From Elusimicrobiaceae bacterium (GTDB taxonomy: Bacteria > Elusimicrobiota > Elusimicrobia > Elusimicrobiales > Elusimicrobiaceae): a DNA stretch of 64,000 bases. Positions 1,194 through 47,385 of the stretch are shown here, in pieces (the stretch's first letter is position 1; each line of letters begins with the position of its first letter). The notes below the pieces were generated by a model. That model saw only the letters and a program-made list of their open reading frames with translations. It searched no databases and had not been told where the DNA came from. The stretch is taken from positions 1 to 64,000 of the forward strand of contig JAFXOI010000005.1 of NCBI GenBank assembly GCA_017528825.1, given 5' to 3'. Position numbers and translations under genes: made by a program.

Positions 1194-3176
1194 ATGTATA
1201 TATTGCCAAAAACAGTAAAGAAATTTCAACAGTTATTGGGAAGTGAGCACGTAAAAACCGATGAAGCGTCTTTGGCGTTAAACGGATACGATTGTTCGCC
1301 TAGTAGCCATCGGCCGGATGCGGTATTAACGCTGACAAATCCGTCGCAATTGCCTACTTTATTACAATTGCTTTCCCGCGAAAAAATTCCTTTCATCACG
1401 CGCGCCCACGCCACCAATCACGCCGGAAGTTGTGCCGCAGTGCAAGGCGGTGTGATACTGGAATTAAATTTTTTACGGCGCATTCACCGCATTGATACGC
1501 TGCACCAATTTGCAGAAGTAGATCCGGCGGTGGTTACAGGGCAATTACAGGCCGTACTGCAACCGCTCGATTATTTTTACGCGCCCGATCCCGCCAGCGA
1601 AAAAGTGTGTACCTTAGGCGGAAATTTAGCTCAAAACGCCAGCGGGGCTCGTTGTATGAAATACGGCAACACGGCTGACAATACCTTACAGGCAGATTTT
1701 TTGCTCCCCAGTGGCCAGTCGCTTGTATTGCGTCATGACAATGCCGGACCGGATTGGTTGGGAGTTATTGCCGGTAGCGAAGGGACTTTGGGCATTGTGC
1801 AAAAAATGCGTGTGAAAATTTTACCATGCCCACCATACATTTACACCTTTTTAGTATCCTTTTCTTCTCTGGCAGAAAGTATCGAAACGGTGACAGATTT
1901 GGTAAGACACGGACTTATTCCGCGTTGCATAGAAGCCATGGACGGGCATACGCTGCGTGCTATTGAACAAGCCACTCCTTCCGGATATCCGTTGGCAGAA
2001 GCGGTGCTGATTATAGAAGTGGACGGCACTTTACGCCAAGTACAAACTGCTCAGCGCACTTTAGACACTTTGTGTCATCGACATCATTGCCTCTCTTTTA
2101 AGATGGCTCAAACAGACGCCGAACGGGAAAAATTATGGAAAGGACGTCGCGCGGCTTATTCTGCCATGACCGCATTAGCGCCCAACATAGCCGTAGGAGA
2201 CGGCACCGTACCGCGCAGTGAGTTGCCGCGCGCCTTGGCACAAGTACAACAAATTATTACCGATTACGGAGTAAAGGCCTGTTTGTTGTTTCACGCGGGA
2301 GACGGAAATTTCCATCCGCAACTGGTGTTTGATGCGCGCAGTCCCGAGCAGACCCGTCAAGCCAAAAAAGCCCTGCAAGCGATTTTGAAAACTTGTGTGG
2401 ATTGCGGTGGCACTATATCGGGGGAACATGGAATAGGTGTAGAAAAAAGAGCTTTAATGGCCTACCAATACTCGCAACAAACTTTGCAATTATTCCAAAA
2501 AATTAAGAATGCATTTGACCCTTATCACTTGGCCAACCCATCCAAAATTCTTCCTGTAAATTTTGAGGAAAAAGCGCTTTCTAAGCAACCCACAAGGCCG
2601 GAGGTAATGGCCTTGCAACAAGATGTCATTCAACGATTTCAACGCAAACAAAAAAGTAGCATTACCGGCGGACCGAGTACCGATTCTACCTCGCTTTCTA
2701 CGTCCTCTTTATCGCACATTATAGAAATTGATACGGTCAATTATACCGCTACCATACAAGCAGGAGTAGCCGTAGACTCCATTGTGAAAACACTGGCCGG
2801 TCATCAGCTTTATGCCAAATTGCCAACCGGTTTTACCGGCACATTAGGCGCGTTGGTAGCCACCAAAGCTGCGCCGGAATTTATCTCTCAAATTACAGGG
2901 ATAGAGGCCCTGCTTGCCAATGGAGATTTTATCTCCTACGGCGGAAAAGTGATGAAAAATGCCGCCGGTTATAATATAGGCCGCTTGCTGGCCGGTTCAT
3001 GGGGAGCCTTGGGAATTATCACGCAACTTACTTTCAAAATTTATGCCTCGGCTTGCCAGACAGAGGCCCTCGCGCCGCAAACACCCCACGCCGATGAATT
3101 ATTCAGAGCTGTTAAAAAAGAAATAGATCCCGACGGATTGTTCTTGTCCCCGGCGTTTTCTACGGAGGGAGCATGA
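1194..3176 (+). CDS. FAD-linked glycolate/lactate oxidase, GlcD-GlcE fusion
   Basis: A 660-residue flavoprotein. Residues about 1-450 match the GlcD/D-lactate dehydrogenase fold: an FAD-binding PCMH domain with GSEGTLGIV, and a C-terminal oxidase domain ending in the hallmark SGEHGIGVEKR. Residues about 480-660 form a second, partial FAD-binding domain resembling GlcE (NAAGYNIGRLLAGSWGALG). GlcD, GlcE and GlcF are normally separate subunits of glycolate oxidase; here D and E look fused. It overlaps the Fe-S partner gene by 4 nt, so the two are translationally coupled. ATG 1194 has GAGG 8 nt upstream; a TTG at 1167 is in frame but less likely. Substrate (glycolate, lactate or another 2-hydroxyacid) is undecided. 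Confidence 0.85.
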   Translation: MYILPKTVKKFQQLLGSEHVKTDEASLALNGYDCSPSSHRPDAVLTLTNPSQLPTLLQLLSREKIPFITRAHATNHAGSCAAVQGGVILELNFLRRIHRIDTLHQFAEVDPAVVTGQLQAVLQPLDYFYAPDPASEKVCTLGGNLAQNASGARCMKYGNTADNTLQADFLLPSGQSLVLRHDNAGPDWLGVIAGSEGTLGIVQKMRVKILPCPPYIYTFLVSFSSLAESIETVTDLVRHGLIPRCIEAMDGHTLRAIEQATPSGYPLAEAVLIIEVDGTLRQVQTAQRTLDTLCHRHHCLSFKMAQTDAEREKLWKGRRAAYSAMTALAPNIAVGDGTVPRSELPRALAQVQQIITDYGVKACLLFHAGDGNFHPQLVFDARSPEQTRQAKKALQAILKTCVDCGGTISGEHGIGVEKRALMAYQYSQQTLQLFQKIKNAFDPYHLANPSKILPVNFEEKALSKQPTRPEVMALQQDVIQRFQRKQKSSITGGPSTDSTSLSTSSLSHIIEIDTVNYTATIQAGVAVDSIVKTLAGHQLYAKLPTGFTGTLGALVATKAAPEFISQITGIEALLANGDFISYGGKVMKNAAGYNIGRLLAGSWGALGIITQLTFKIYASACQTEALAPQTPHADELFRAVKKEIDPDGLFLSPAFSTEGA

Positions 3177-6794: not shown

Positions 6795-7343
6795 TTAAGG
6801 AAGTGTATAATTATCTGACCAAGCACTGCCGCTTAAAAATGTACCGTGAAAAATTTTCTCACAGTAATCACCTTTCTGTTTTTGAAAAGGGAATTTGATG
6901 GTTTGATGAAACTCTCTGCAGATAGGTGCTTGCAAATGATAATAGTCCTGGTAATGTTGAAGGTTCACTTGAAATGCAGCCCCTTTATAGGGGCCTGACC
7001 GACGTACAACATTTATTGCTAATGTTGGGTCAGAATCTTTATAAAATTCCAATGACCAATCGGCATTGGAACGCACATCAGATTGATTATATGTACGAGA
7101 TTGTTCCCTGCCTGTCCAAGCAATATCCACATCTAATAAATCAAATCTGTCGGTAAAGTTGCCATTAGCCAGCCAATAAACCTCTTCTGCCTCAGAAACC
7201 GCACGCAGGACAGTTACAGCTTCTGCGGCTTTACTTTTTTCTACTGCTTTCTCATATTGTGGCAACGCAATAGCAGACAAAATACCAATGATGAGTACCA
7301 CAACTAGTAATTCAATCAGCGTAAACGCCTTTTGATTTTTCAT
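6795..7343 (-). CDS. Type IV pilin-like protein (leader copy A)
   Basis: A 182-residue pilin precursor: short leader MKNQKA, cleavage before FTLIELLVVV, one N-terminal hydrophobic helix, ALPQYEKAVEKSKAAEA, then a soluble head with two C-terminal region cysteines that could form the D-region disulfide. Ala replaces the usual Gly at -1 of the cleavage site. ATG 7343 is chosen because the ribosome site AGGAGA is 6 nt upstream; the ATG at 7349 touches the ribosome site. It is monocistronic, convergent with mnmA, and preceded by the structured 220-nt leader. The head sequence differs strongly from other copies while the first 45 residues are nearly the same. Confidence 0.93.
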   Translation of the reverse strand: MKNQKAFTLIELLVVVLIIGILSAIALPQYEKAVEKSKAAEAVTVLRAVSEAEEVYWLANGNFTDRFDLLDVDIAWTGREQSRTYNQSDVRSNADWSLEFYKDSDPTLAINVVRRSGPYKGAAFQVNLQHYQDYYHLQAPICREFHQTIKFPFQKQKGDYCEKIFHGTFLSGSAWSDNYTLP

Positions 7344-7419: not shown

Positions 7420-7641
7420 TTTGGAAAACGGACATAAAAAACGGCCGTTATTATCAGATCCTCTTGTAATCATCCCATAACAACAGCCGTAATTTATCAC
7501 TTATAAGTGATAAACATTCAGCACAAAACGACCGGGTAATTATTCCGTTCGCTTTGTGCTTAATACGACTGTTTTCGGACTACAAGAGGGTTTTTAGTTA
7601 TCTAAAAACGATCCGCATTCTGCATACGGTTCCAAAAACAG
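7420..7641 (-). promoter_or_regulatory. Structured pilin leader, copy A: terminator/antiterminator attenuator
   Basis: Transcribed leftwards. Segment 1 is 7632-7641, segment 2 is 7566-7578, segment 3 is 7477-7489 and segment 4 is 7442-7454, followed by six U (A6 at 7436-7441). Segments 3:4 form a 13-bp terminator stem; 2:3 form the alternative helix (8 bp). The long-range helix pairs 7578-7589 with 7460-7471 (12 bp). Hairpins: P2 7613-7629, P3 7590-7609 (GTTTTTAG/CTAAAAAC), P6 7520-7560, P7 7492-7515. An outermost helix joins 7630-7636 to 7420-7426. A -10 TATAAT is at 7682-7687, and a further 5' hairpin spans 7654-7675. Same architecture as copies B, C and D. Confidence 0.85.
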
Positions 7642-7700
7642 ATTAAATTGTACGCCAAGCAAAACTACACTTGACCTTTTCATTATAACAAAAAATAAGC

Positions 7701-11204: not shown

Positions 11205-11244
11205 AAGAAGGTCAAATGATGTTCATTTGGCATACAATTTTAAT

Positions 11245-11464
11245 CTGTTTTTGGAACCGTATGCAGAATACGGAGCGCTGTTAAATACTAACAGCACAAG
11301 TCTAGTCCAAAGACAGTCGTTTAGGTATAGAATGAACGGAAGTCATGAGCCGTTTGTTTTATGCCAAACGTTTATCGTTTTGGCGATAAACTACGGCTGT
11401 TTTATTTGGGTTACTAGACTTGGCTCAAATAAGGCAGCCGTTTTTGCATCCGTTTTCCAAAAAA
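11245..11464 (+). promoter_or_regulatory. Structured pilin leader, copy B: terminator/antiterminator attenuator
   Basis: Segment 1 11245-11254, segment 2 11307-11319, segment 3 11394-11408, segment 4 11426-11440, then U5 (11441-11445). Segments 3:4 give an unbroken 15-bp terminator stem (CGGCTGTTTTATTTG with CAAATAAGGCAGCCG, two G-U pairs). Segments 2:3 give the rival helix ACAGTCG/CGGCTGT. Long-range helix AAGTCTAGT (11298-11306) / ACTAGACTT (11413-11421); its 3' strand is the terminator loop. Hairpins: P2 11257-11273, P3 11277-11295 (GCTGTT/AACAGC), P6 11324-11365 (16 bp with G-U pairs), P7 11370-11391. Outermost helix 11248-11256 with 11455-11463, ending just before the pilin ribosome site. 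Confidence 0.88.
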
Positions 11465-11480
11465 TAATAAGGAGAACGGT

Positions 11481-12026
11481 ATGAAAAAGAAACAAGGTTT
11501 TACTCTCGTCGAATTACTGGTAGTGGTGGTAATTATTGCTATCTTAACTGCCGCCGCACTACCTATGTATGAAAAGGCCTCTAGAAAAGCGCAATTTGTA
11601 CAGGTACAAACTACACTACGAGCGCTCATGCAGGATGTAGACTCCTACACCATGGAAAATGGATATGATACCGGAGATTGGAACTCATTAATCCAATCTG
11701 TAAATTGCAAATCTACAACTGGCTGGGGGCAATGTAGTACAGATGAAGGAACTTATTGGACCTACCTTGAAAACAATAACGCTATCAGTATCAACTTTGT
11801 TCCTAGTTCCAAATTATTCGTAAATTCAAAAAATAGTGGCTATACCTTTGTAAAATCTATTGGGCAACCCTGGACTTGGACAAACAGCATGTCTCGATTA
11901 CGAGAATACTACCCAGTTCCTGCTTATGACGAAACGTTTCAACTGTTTTGCGATTGGTGGATTAACAACGGTGGCAAGGCGATATCCGGAAGTGCGGAAA
12001 GCGTGGCTAACGCTAGTTGCAAATAA
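11481..12026 (+). CDS. Type IV pilin-like protein (leader copy B)
   Basis: A 181-residue pilin precursor with leader MKKKQG, cleavage before FTLVELLVVVVII, and Glu5 of the mature form present. It is the most divergent copy in the helix: AILTAAALPMYEKASRKA replaces the otherwise constant GILSAIALPQYEKAVEK. Cysteines in the middle and at the C-terminus could form the D-region loop. The ribosome site AAGGAGAACGGT sets the start. The gene is monocistronic, has the structured leader upstream and a strong terminator downstream, and faces the rplA operon. Confidence 0.92.
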   Translation: MKKKQGFTLVELLVVVVIIAILTAAALPMYEKASRKAQFVQVQTTLRALMQDVDSYTMENGYDTGDWNSLIQSVNCKSTTGWGQCSTDEGTYWTYLENNNAISINFVPSSKLFVNSKNSGYTFVKSIGQPWTWTNSMSRLREYYPVPAYDETFQLFCDWWINNGGKAISGSAESVANASCK

Positions 12027-27257: not shown

Positions 27258-27316
27258 AAGTTTTACATTCCCCATTTCTTACCGATAATTTGCAACTTGC
27301 AATATGCAAAATTTGT

Positions 27317-27322
27317 TATACT
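27317..27322 (+). promoter_or_regulatory. -10 element of pilin leader C
   Basis: TATACT preceded by AAATTTGT, the same 14-nt text as before leader D on the other strand (34349-34354). Segment 1 of the leader starts 23 nt downstream. No conserved -35 is apparent. Confidence 0.6.
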
Positions 27323-27345
27323 AAAAAAGACGTATACAATTTGAT

Positions 27346-27562
27346 CTGTTTTTGGAACCGTATATGGAATACGGAGAGCCCTAAAAGGGTCCTTATCCCG
27401 CCAAAAACAGCCGATATAAAGCACAAAATGAACGGCTTAATTACCCGTTTGTTTTGTGCTCAATGTTTACCGCCTTTTGGCGGTAAACTACGGCTGTTTG
27501 CTTTTGGGATCTGGGATAAGGGCTCAAGGTAAACAGCCGTTTTTCATATCCGTTTTCCAAAA
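27346..27562 (+). promoter_or_regulatory. Structured pilin leader, copy C: terminator/antiterminator attenuator
   Basis: Segment 1 27346-27355 (CTGTTTTTGG), segment 2 27401-27413 (CCAAAAACAGCCG), segment 3 27491-27499 (CGGCTGTTT), segment 4 27531-27539 (AAACAGCCG), U5 27540-27544. 1:2 is a perfect 10-bp helix, 2:3 a perfect 9-bp helix, 3:4 a perfect 9-bp terminator stem extended by further pairs. Long-range helix CCTTATCCC (27391-27399) / GGGATAAGG (27513-27521). Hairpins: P2 27358-27374, P3 27379-27389, P6 27420-27460 (AGCACAAAATGAACGG with CCGTTTGTTTTGTGCT), P7 27465-27488 (10 bp). Outermost helix 27350-27357 with 27555-27562. Confidence 0.9.
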
Positions 27563-27587
27563 GCAAAAACTAATAAGGAGAATGAAT

Positions 27588-28076
27588 ATGAAACGCAAAC
27601 AAGGTTTTACTCTTATAGAACTACTGGTAGTGGTACTGATTATTGGCATTTTGTCTGCCATTGCCTTGCCGCAATATCAAAAAGCTGTTAAAAAAGCTGA
27701 CTTTGCAGAAGCTATGCTTAACCTAAAAACAATGGGAGAAGCACAACAAACATGCAAATTAGCTACTGGCGAGGATTATTGTACTTTTGAAGAAATGGGA
27801 ATAGACATTGGTGTGGCAGGAAACGGCGGAGGAATAAGCTCAATAGTTTCTGATTTAGGTAGAGAAACAAAAAATTTTGTTTATACTTCTTCACCGACTA
27901 ATGGTACTGGTTTAGTAGCAGCAGAATATAAAAAAGAAGATGTTTGTATCTGTTATTTCCAAGACGGACATTTCGAACTGATGACAGACGATTGTAATCA
28001 TCCAAACAAAACTTCTTTAAATTACTTTAAATTATTAAATATACCTGAAGAAAATACCGCTTGTGGTTGCTGTTAA
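27588..28076 (+). CDS. Type IV pilin-like protein (leader copy C)
   Basis: A 162-residue pilin precursor, [19 protein letters not shown], then ALPQYQKAVKKADFAEAML. The head carries seven cysteines, more than the other copies, ending in CGCC at the C-terminus, so multiple disulfides or a metal site are possible. ATG 27588 is 7 nt after the AAGGAG ribosome site; ATG 27582 is only 1 nt away. The gene is monocistronic with leader C before it and a terminator after it. Confidence 0.92.
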   Translation: MKRKQGFTLIELLVVVLIIGILSAIALPQYQKAVKKADFAEAMLNLKTMGEAQQTCKLATGEDYCTFEEMGIDIGVAGNGGGISSIVSDLGRETKNFVYTSSPTNGTGLVAAEYKKEDVCICYFQDGHFELMTDDCNHPNKTSLNYFKLLNIPEENTACGCC

Positions 28077-33589: not shown

Positions 33590-34081
33590 TTAGTCACTCC
33601 ATCCGTCTGCCCATAAAGCAGAACAATATTTATTTGCATCGCTTCCATAGCAGGCTTTTTGCCAAACATTTGAAGATTTGCTTTTCTGTAGCCATAATTC
33701 ATAAGTTTCTGGATTGCTATATATTCCACCGGGATGACGTTGAACTACTATTGTACAATCGGAAGGGCTACAACCAGCATAATAACTAAAATTTTTACTC
33801 ATACATTCATCTTCCTCACTACAGTTCAAGGTGGTTTTTAAATCAATAGATAAAGGGACTGTCTCCTCACTAAGAGGAGCAATAAAATAAGATTCTTGAT
33901 ATCCATTTTCTAGAATGTATATGTCTATTGCCCGTTGTAGACTTCCAATATTTTGCAAAGCTTCAGCCATGCGAGCTTTTTCCACCGCTTTTTCATATTG
34001 CGGCAAGGCAATTGCGGACAATATGCCGATAATCAGTACTACCACTAATAATTCAATTAATGTAAAACCTCTTTTTTTCAT
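33590..34081 (-). CDS. Type IV pilin-like protein (leader copy D)
   Basis: A 163-residue pilin precursor, [19 protein letters not shown], then ALPQYEKAVEKARMAEALQN. The C-terminal region has two widely spaced cysteines before the ending ADGWSD. ATG 34081 is 7 nt from the AGGAG ribosome site; a GTG at 34087 is in frame but too close. It is monocistronic, convergent with glnA, and preceded by leader D. Confidence 0.92.
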   Translation of the reverse strand: MKKRGFTLIELLVVVLIIGILSAIALPQYEKAVEKARMAEALQNIGSLQRAIDIYILENGYQESYFIAPLSEETVPLSIDLKTTLNCSEEDECMSKNFSYYAGCSPSDCTIVVQRHPGGIYSNPETYELWLQKSKSSNVWQKACYGSDANKYCSALWADGWSD

Positions 34082-34105: not shown

Positions 34106-34326
34106 TTTTTGGAAAACGGATATAAAAAACGGCTGTATCTTGCTTGAGAGTATCCTCACTTCAACCAAGAACAGCCGTGGTCTGCCGCGCCCGAAGGAGC
34201 GGCAAACACTCGGCACAAAACAAACGGGTAATTAGTCCATTCATTTTGTGCCTGATATCGGCTGTTTTTGGAGAGGGTACTCTTGCCTAACGGCAAAGTC
34301 CGTTTCTTAAACGGTTCCAAAAACAG
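34106..34326 (-). promoter_or_regulatory. Structured pilin leader, copy D: terminator/antiterminator attenuator
   Basis: Transcribed leftwards. Segment 1 34317-34326, segment 2 34259-34271, segment 3 34165-34177, segment 4 34130-34141, six U (A6 at 34124-34129). 1:2 is a perfect 10-bp helix; 2:3 pairs AACAGCCG/CGGCTGTT; 3:4 pairs CGGCTGT/ACAGCCG then, after a mismatch, CTTG/CAAG. Long-range helix 34273-34283 with 34147-34157 (11 bp, one G-U). P2 is CCGTTT/AAACGG (34300-34314), P3 TTGCC/GGCAA (34283-34296), P6 is 34212-34253 approximately, P7 GTTTGCCGC/GCGGCAGAC. Outermost helix 34315-34323 with 34106-34114. The -10 TATACT is at 34349-34354. Confidence 0.88.
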
Positions 34327-34451
34327 ATCAAATTGTTACTACACTCTCAGTATAACAAATTTCCGCTTGCCCTGCCGCAGATTTAAATTCTCACACACTT
34401 TCTTAAATTTCTTCCGCCAAGACTTAATAATAAAGTAGAATAATAGTATCT

Positions 34452-46905: not shown

Positions 46906-47385
46906 CTAGGGCTCTGTACAAGAACTGCTATTGCAATTAGTAAAACCTAGTGCTTTACATAAATTAACATTTCCGCTACAATCATTCAGAATTTTTCCAT
47001 TTATGCTCCCATGTATATGTATATTTGATGAAGGAAGACTTGTAACATAAAATTCAACTCCATCATCTGTTCCGTATTGCCAATATTTTGTATTAAAACA
47101 AAAAATATCATCATTCAAACACGCGTCCCCCGTTAATAAAGGAGCAGGTGCTTCAAAATCGACAAATTCTGTATTAGAAGAAGAAGCACAGTCAGAAACC
47201 GGCCCCATTTCTAATACACATAATTTATATCCATCAGCAATAGCTTTTGAAATCATCTTAACTTCTGCAAAACGGCTTTTCATAACCGCTTTTTCATATT
47301 GCGGCAAAGCAATTGCGGATAAAATACCGATAATGAGTACAACAACTAACAATTCAATTAGTGTAAAACCTCTTTTCTTATTCAT
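46906..47385 (-). CDS. Type IV pilin-like protein (T-tract promoter class)
   Basis: A 159-residue pilin precursor, [19 protein letters not shown], then ALPQYEKAVMKSRFAEVKM. The head has several cysteines, with a C-terminal cluster near CKALGFTNCNSSSC. ATG 47385 has AAGGAG 8 nt upstream. It lacks the 220-nt leader; instead a T-tract promoter is found. No terminator is clear between it and the start of glmU. Confidence 0.92.
   Translation of the reverse strand: MNKKRGFTLIELLVVVLIIGILSAIALPQYEKAVMKSRFAEVKMISKAIADGYKLCVLEMGPVSDCASSSNTEFVDFEAPAPLLTGDACLNDDIFCFNTKYWQYGTDDGVEFYVTSLPSSNIHIHGSINGKILNDCSGNVNLCKALGFTNCNSSSCTEP

Follow-up and report, generated by a model that had tools for sequence, protein, structure and literature searches.

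A pseudoknotted leader RNA with mutually exclusive pairings, a likely transcription attenuator of Elusimicrobiota

Introduction

In a 64,000-nucleotide stretch of an Elusimicrobiaceae genome (contig JAFXOI010000005.1; hereafter, the window), a type IV pilin-like gene is preceded by four short segments that can pair with each other in mutually exclusive ways. The question raised by this locus is whether such a leader decides if the gene behind it is transcribed. An earlier note on the same DNA described four copies, A to D, and proposed that pairing 3:4 is an intrinsic terminator, that 2:3 blocks it, and that 1:2 releases it. We consider it likely that the leader is a cis-acting, pseudoknotted transcription attenuator and belongs to a new RNA family of Elusimicrobiota; it probably also exerts translational control. 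The pairings and their conservation are read directly from the sequences, and from these we infer termination, its direction, and the translational effect. Beyond the earlier note, the analysis covers a pseudoknot formed by strands L and L', a sequestered ribosome site, a palindromic loop, the number of copies in the whole genome, and a wider set of target genes.

Organization of the leader in the window

Copy C occupies positions 27345-27544 of the forward strand (model positions 1-208) and matches the covariance model described below with 177 bits. Direct reading confirmed its four segments and the run of five T: segment 1 (CTGTTTTTGG / CUGUUUUUGG; 27346-27355), for which the 1:2 pairing was examined in 95 copies; segment 2 (CCAAAAACAGCCG; 27401-27413), a partner of either 1 or 3 by conserved pairing; segment 3 (CGGCTGTTT / CGGCUGUUU; 27491-27499), whose conserved partners are segment 2 in the antiterminator and segment 4 in the terminator; and segment 4 (AAACAGCCG; 27531-27539), which together with U5 (27540-27544) makes up the 3' half of a putative intrinsic terminator (27531-27544). 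The exclusive pairings 1:2, 2:3, and 3:4 followed by U5 are present in copy C as had been claimed, and the same arrangement recurs in copies A, B, and D.

The helix formed by segments 1 and 2, denoted P1, encloses hairpin a (27358-27374), where both sides change at every pair in some copies, and hairpin b (27375-27392), a covarying helix of variable sequence and approximate boundaries. The variable strand L (CCUUAUCCC; 27391-27399) is the 5' strand of a long-range helix private to each copy; its best partner is its own L' (GGGAUAAGG; 27513-27521), located in the apical loop of the terminator hairpin. Hairpins c (27421-27459), with the palindrome UAAUUA at 27438-27443 in its apical loop, and d (27465-27488) both have covarying stems. 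Downstream, a post-terminator segment (27542-27564) containing segment 5 (UUCCAAAAGC), a potential partner of segment 1, is complementary to the ribosome site and start codon of the gene, read directly as a Shine-Dalgarno AAGGAG and an AUG at 27588 (27575-27590). The gene itself (27588-28076, forward strand) encodes a type IV pilin-like protein (Pfam N_methyl, E 7e-10).

The other three copies, all covariance-model matches, precede pilin genes as well: copy A (7437-7642, reverse strand) the gene at 6795-7343 (reverse; N_methyl), copy B (11244-11445, forward strand) the gene at 11481-12026 (forward; N_methyl), and copy D (34125-34327, reverse strand) the gene at 33590-34081 (reverse; pilin motif). 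The leader is absent from the other pilin-like genes of the window, at 47367, 62280, and 114, all on the reverse strand.

Just 5' of segment 1, the promoter-like sequence TTGTTA-16-TACAAT, with TATACT within (27313-27340, forward strand), was detected in a consensus scan that yielded no more matches than expected by chance. Two promoter layouts were distinguished among the copies. In the directly promoted class, for example at 27313-27344 of the window (TTGTTATACT), the promoter lies immediately upstream of the leader, and both of its elements recur in the copies of this class. In the second class, represented by L041, a TATAAT lies farther up and is followed by AGGAG with a small hairpin (AAGCCTTAAACGTGGCTT) and then by the leader.

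Conservation of the switching segments

Among 95 copies, standard base pairs account for 99.2% of pairing 1:2, 95.2% of pairing 2:3, and 96.7% of pairing 3:4. Pairing 2:3 was left out of the covariance model; controls in which its strands were slid gave 26-64% in the same copies, and in a second set of 86 copies it was 99.7% paired, against 25-65% when slid. Base changes in the switching segments preserve the pairs. The YCG of segment 2 runs past P1, being unpaired in the terminator fold and required for 2:3. Of the eight pairs of 2:3, those within CAG are also fixed by 1:2, and covariation of 2:3 within the set is slight (three pairs), so that much of the argument rests on the divergent members. 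In nine members, mostly divergent, segments 1-4 have changed and the cognate segments still pair; L078, for example, carries GAUUAUU in both segment 1 and segment 3. With segment windows of the divergent members chosen by eye, and with the cognate arrangement itself included in the counts, 2, 69, and 1 of the 362,880 permutations of these nine members were as good as the cognate one for 1:2, 2:3, and 3:4, respectively.

In each of the 35 aligned genome copies, four or more consecutive U follow the 3:4 stem. The stem extensions of the terminator, which had been noted to vary and yet stay paired, indeed covary (cognate -7.6 versus -4.7 kcal/mol; 0 of 10,000 permutations). According to fold energies, which exclude the pseudoknot and folding kinetics, 2:3 is favoured by 7.9 kcal/mol on average before segment 4 is available (35 of 35 copies), and the terminator with 1:2 by 6.9 kcal/mol on average afterwards (34 of 35). 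This comparative and energetic evidence backs the proposed roles of 3:4 as a predicted intrinsic terminator, 2:3 as the pairing that would block it, and 1:2 as the one that would release it, and strongly suggests that the leader determines whether transcription of each gene is completed.

In four members (L085, L087, L093, and L099), a second hairpin with a T run lies behind the first terminator; several of these precede sugar-transferase genes.

Fold of the leader

For the copy C leader plus its downstream part, folding gave z = -9.7 relative to shuffled sequences. The minimum-energy structure of this extended sequence is a long rod, which was rejected as a general model, given that 33 of the 35 genome copies, folded singly up to the U run, adopt a different structure: P1 with hairpins a and b, then c and d, and then the terminator. 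This corresponds to the consensus order, in which the terminator 3:4 has an extended stem. In 98 aligned matches, 60 of the 62 modelled pairs show changes on both sides, and 95% of the cells are paired, compared with 39-53% in slid controls; several alignments were fitted to the covariance model itself, and the copy sets partly overlap. Many of the source genomes are metagenome-assembled.

A helix private to each copy

L comprises the 11 nt preceding segment 2. It is complementary to L', the apical loop of the terminator in its own copy, and shows little complementarity to the L' of other copies. In the genome of the window, cognate L:L' pairs reach -14.9 versus -3.7 kcal/mol, and the cognate partner ranks first in 35 of 35 copies (0 of 10,000 permutations). 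The own L' was likewise the best partner of L in 86 of 95 and 79 of 86 copies of the larger sets, and in 25 of 27 copies from another family. The resulting helix of about 10 bp, which links the P1 junction to the terminator loop, differs in almost every copy. In 178 distinct copies, it mostly consists of 9-11 pairs, and all four Watson-Crick pairs occur at positions -3 to -9. In the same copies, G-U pairs make up 2.0% of L:L' but 8.6-18.3% of helices b, c+d, and 3:4.

L:L' is compatible with both predicted folds: it can nest with 2:3, or it can join 1:2 and 3:4 in an H-type pseudoknot. The variability of this helix, combined with the near-absence of wobble pairs, has three candidate causes: neutral drift constrained by strict pairing, selection that keeps the many leaders from cross-pairing, and templated correction of an inverted repeat in DNA.

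Pairing of the post-terminator segment with the ribosome site

The post-terminator segment matches the ribosome site and start codon of its own gene at -14.8, compared with -10.4 for swapped partners (42 copies; 0 of 10,000 permutations), and in a second set of 47 copies the values for its own ribosome site were -14.3 and -9.6 (0 of 10,000). Segment 5, a second copy of segment 2, is present in only 66 of 167 distinct post-terminator sequences, and its carriers pair with segment 1 at a mean of -10.5 kcal/mol, versus -5.5 kcal/mol for the remainder. The pairing of class II post-terminator segments with the 3' half of the terminator received modest support (7 of 10,000 permutations; 13 copies). 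These complementarities suggest a second, translational layer of control, which would be opened once 2:3 frees segment 1.

Copy number, distribution, and target genes

The 1.53-Mb genome was searched by pattern, which identified 37 related sites, and by a covariance model built from 35 of these. The model detected 46 full-length copies, 37 of which precede type IV pilins, and two more copies cut by contig ends. Contigs C15 and C16 of G000 (bases 1-130) both begin inside the same leader copy. Repeats of the family probably break assemblies, and the copy number may be higher than counted.

Of 248 Elusimicrobiota genomes sampled, 73 contain the family, including nearly all of the genus of the window, sister genera, and a second family. 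Since only a small number of candidates from each genome were scored, the copy counts in these relatives are minimum values. Named records with the leader belong to Elusimicrobiaceae or Elusimicrobiales, many of them from rumen and gut. Pattern matches in Gracilibacteria (two) and Flavobacterium (one) were not matched by the covariance model and are attributed to chance, and viral contigs contain no exact match to the P1 pattern.

Among 181 copies from Elusimicrobiota, 157 have a start codon on the same strand within 160 nt, and 96 precede pilins. The targets beyond pilins are surface and DNA-protection genes, encoding an HsdR-like protein, DNA methylases including the EcoRI type, an SNF2 helicase, outer-membrane barrels, YrbL, RgpF, glycosyltransferases of families 2, 8, and 9, a CapD-like polysaccharide protein, pyruvyl transferase, and a sulfatase-domain protein. 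In another family (L244), tandem leaders at 1268-1444 and 1501-1688 (reverse strand) lie before an EcoRI-type methylase-like gene, and an EcoRI-type methylase gene is also found behind a leader in L159. A zinc-ribbon-like protein (MALIKC...) is encoded behind the leader in several genera (L165, L119, and L266), with a bacterial PH domain in L165, and is possibly an old target of the family.

Proposed mechanism and alternatives

During transcription, segments 1 and 2 would pair first, forming P1 around hairpins a and b, and hairpins c and d would fold next. Segment 3, as it emerges, would have two options. Pairing with segment 2 would give the antiterminator, with L:L' nested in the same fold; waiting for segment 4 would give the intrinsic terminator, with L:L' as an H-type pseudoknot from the P1 junction to the terminator loop. 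After readthrough, the post-terminator segment would pair with the ribosome site and start codon, leaving the gene off; alternatively, in many copies, it could pair with the freed segment 1 and so keep the ribosome site open.

Readthrough might instead be shifted by a host factor that binds the leader or acts as an antiterminator, like RfaH, LoaP, and UpxY. The target types of the leader match those of specialised NusG paralogues, namely, capsule, pili, and adhesins (PMC7819879), but the genome, which is 95% complete, contains a single NusG-domain gene, and CsrA was not found in it. We regard such protein dependence as possible, although rather unlikely.

It is doubtful that the terminated leaders act in trans, as RNAs of about 200 nt that would dimerise via the loops of hairpin c or pair via L and L'. 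In most copies, the apical loop of hairpin c contains a palindrome, and these palindromes are diverse, including UAAUUA, UUAUAA, UCAUGA, UUCGAA, UUGCAA, UCUAGA, GAUC, and AGCU. Six-nucleotide palindromes occur in 12 of 21 distinct c loops, versus 0.99 in shuffled sequences; in other sets, they were found in 61 of 109 c loops, with palindromes of at least 4 nt in 91 of 109, compared with 4 of 109 for the d loops that served as a control. Homodimeric kissing requires palindromic loops, and those of hairpin c suggest that leader RNAs might form dimers; the avoidance of cross-pairing by the private L sequences is also compatible with trans action. However, some divergent members retain both the switch and L:L' but have no hairpin c, which is therefore accessory. 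A broader scheme, improbable in our view, would unite dozens of private, self-matching pseudoknotted attenuators in one RNA regulon spanning the genome, with joint control of pili, surface sugars, and DNA modification; the leaders would sense each other through kissing dimers of interchangeable palindromic loops, and regulation would depend on which and how many of them are transcribed.

Similarly improbable is a metabolite riboswitch, with the P1 junction and hairpins a and b as the aptamer and a small ligand setting terminator versus antiterminator. The position, size, exclusive terminator and antiterminator, and ribosome-site control of the leader are riboswitch-like, and the genome encodes GGDEF proteins, so that second messengers are possible; control by c-di-GMP may occur, although no known riboswitch class matches the leader. 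Conservation is confined almost entirely to the switching segments, with few other positions, a reading limited by the bias of the pattern-selected set to conserved segments 1 and 2, and a search of the aligned copies for a conserved unpaired, ligand-like core found none, which argues against a riboswitch. At or above the gathering threshold, the Rfam 15 search of the window returned only tRNAs, the best scores in the leader being 22.7 versus 52 bits and 16.1 versus 50 bits. The mixture of targets (pilins, sugar transferases, restriction-modification) also speaks against this reading. Of the two resemblances drawn in the earlier note, that to attenuators stands, whereas that to riboswitches is weaker, there being no visible ligand pocket; the label attenuator is supported, and riboswitch is not.

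A dispersed palindromic mobile repeat devoid of a regulatory role is very hard to reconcile with the data: dozens of copies in some genomes against few in relatives, and near-perfect inverted repeats, are what such an element would show, but the orientation and distance to start codons are fixed, not random, each copy pairs with the ribosome site of its own gene, and the same architecture is built from different sequences in another family. The leader possibly spread by duplication along with genes, which is compatible with function. Ribosome-coupled attenuation via a leader peptide before segment 1 is scarcely credible, since the SD-like AGGAG that 78 of 181 copies carry before the leader has no ORF behind it in most, and a start at fitting distance followed by at least six codons was found in only 10 of 181 copies, mostly as TTG and with no shared peptide sequence.

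Comparison with known systems

As a cis-acting attenuator, the leader would define an extensive family of regulatory RNAs in a phylum that has received little study; with dozens of copies in some genomes, it would control genes for the contact surface and for DNA protection in gut bacteria. No description of it was found in literature searches. Its anatomy, with a private, almost wobble-free pseudoknot, a sequestered ribosome site, and palindromic loops, raises the questions of how so large a number of nearly identical RNAs are kept separate within a cell, and whether dimers of leader RNAs have a regulatory function.

With trp- and pyr-type attenuators, the leader shares four segments, the mutually exclusive pairings 1:2, 2:3, and 3:4, and 3:4 as a presumed intrinsic terminator; unlike these, it has no leader peptide, possesses a terminator loop that the private helix connects to the upstream junction, and occurs in dozens of copies per genome. 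Dimer-initiation elements of the HIV type consist of a conserved hairpin with a palindromic apical loop. Hairpin c resembles them in this respect, as far as loop sequences go, whereas the leaders display many different palindromes in one genome.

Termite-flg and Termite-leu (Rfam RF01729 and RF01730) are structured RNAs reported from the termite hindgut (PMC2864571), where Elusimicrobiota also live, but the Rfam search of the window matched neither. In transcriptional preQ1 riboswitches, a pseudoknot favours the terminator (PMC11625349), and the leader is similar in that its pseudoknot appears to be coupled to terminator formation; ribosome-site sequestration is also used within the preQ1 family. 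However, the leader is about 200 nt long rather than a small aptamer, has no Rfam match, and lacks a conserved ligand core. RfaH, UpxY, and LoaP mediate antitermination of surface and pilus operons, and UpxY also acts on early termination within 5' leaders (PMC7819879). The likeness to these systems lies in the types of target genes; the difference is that, in a genome with one NusG-domain gene, the leader is large and structured and carries its own putative terminator.
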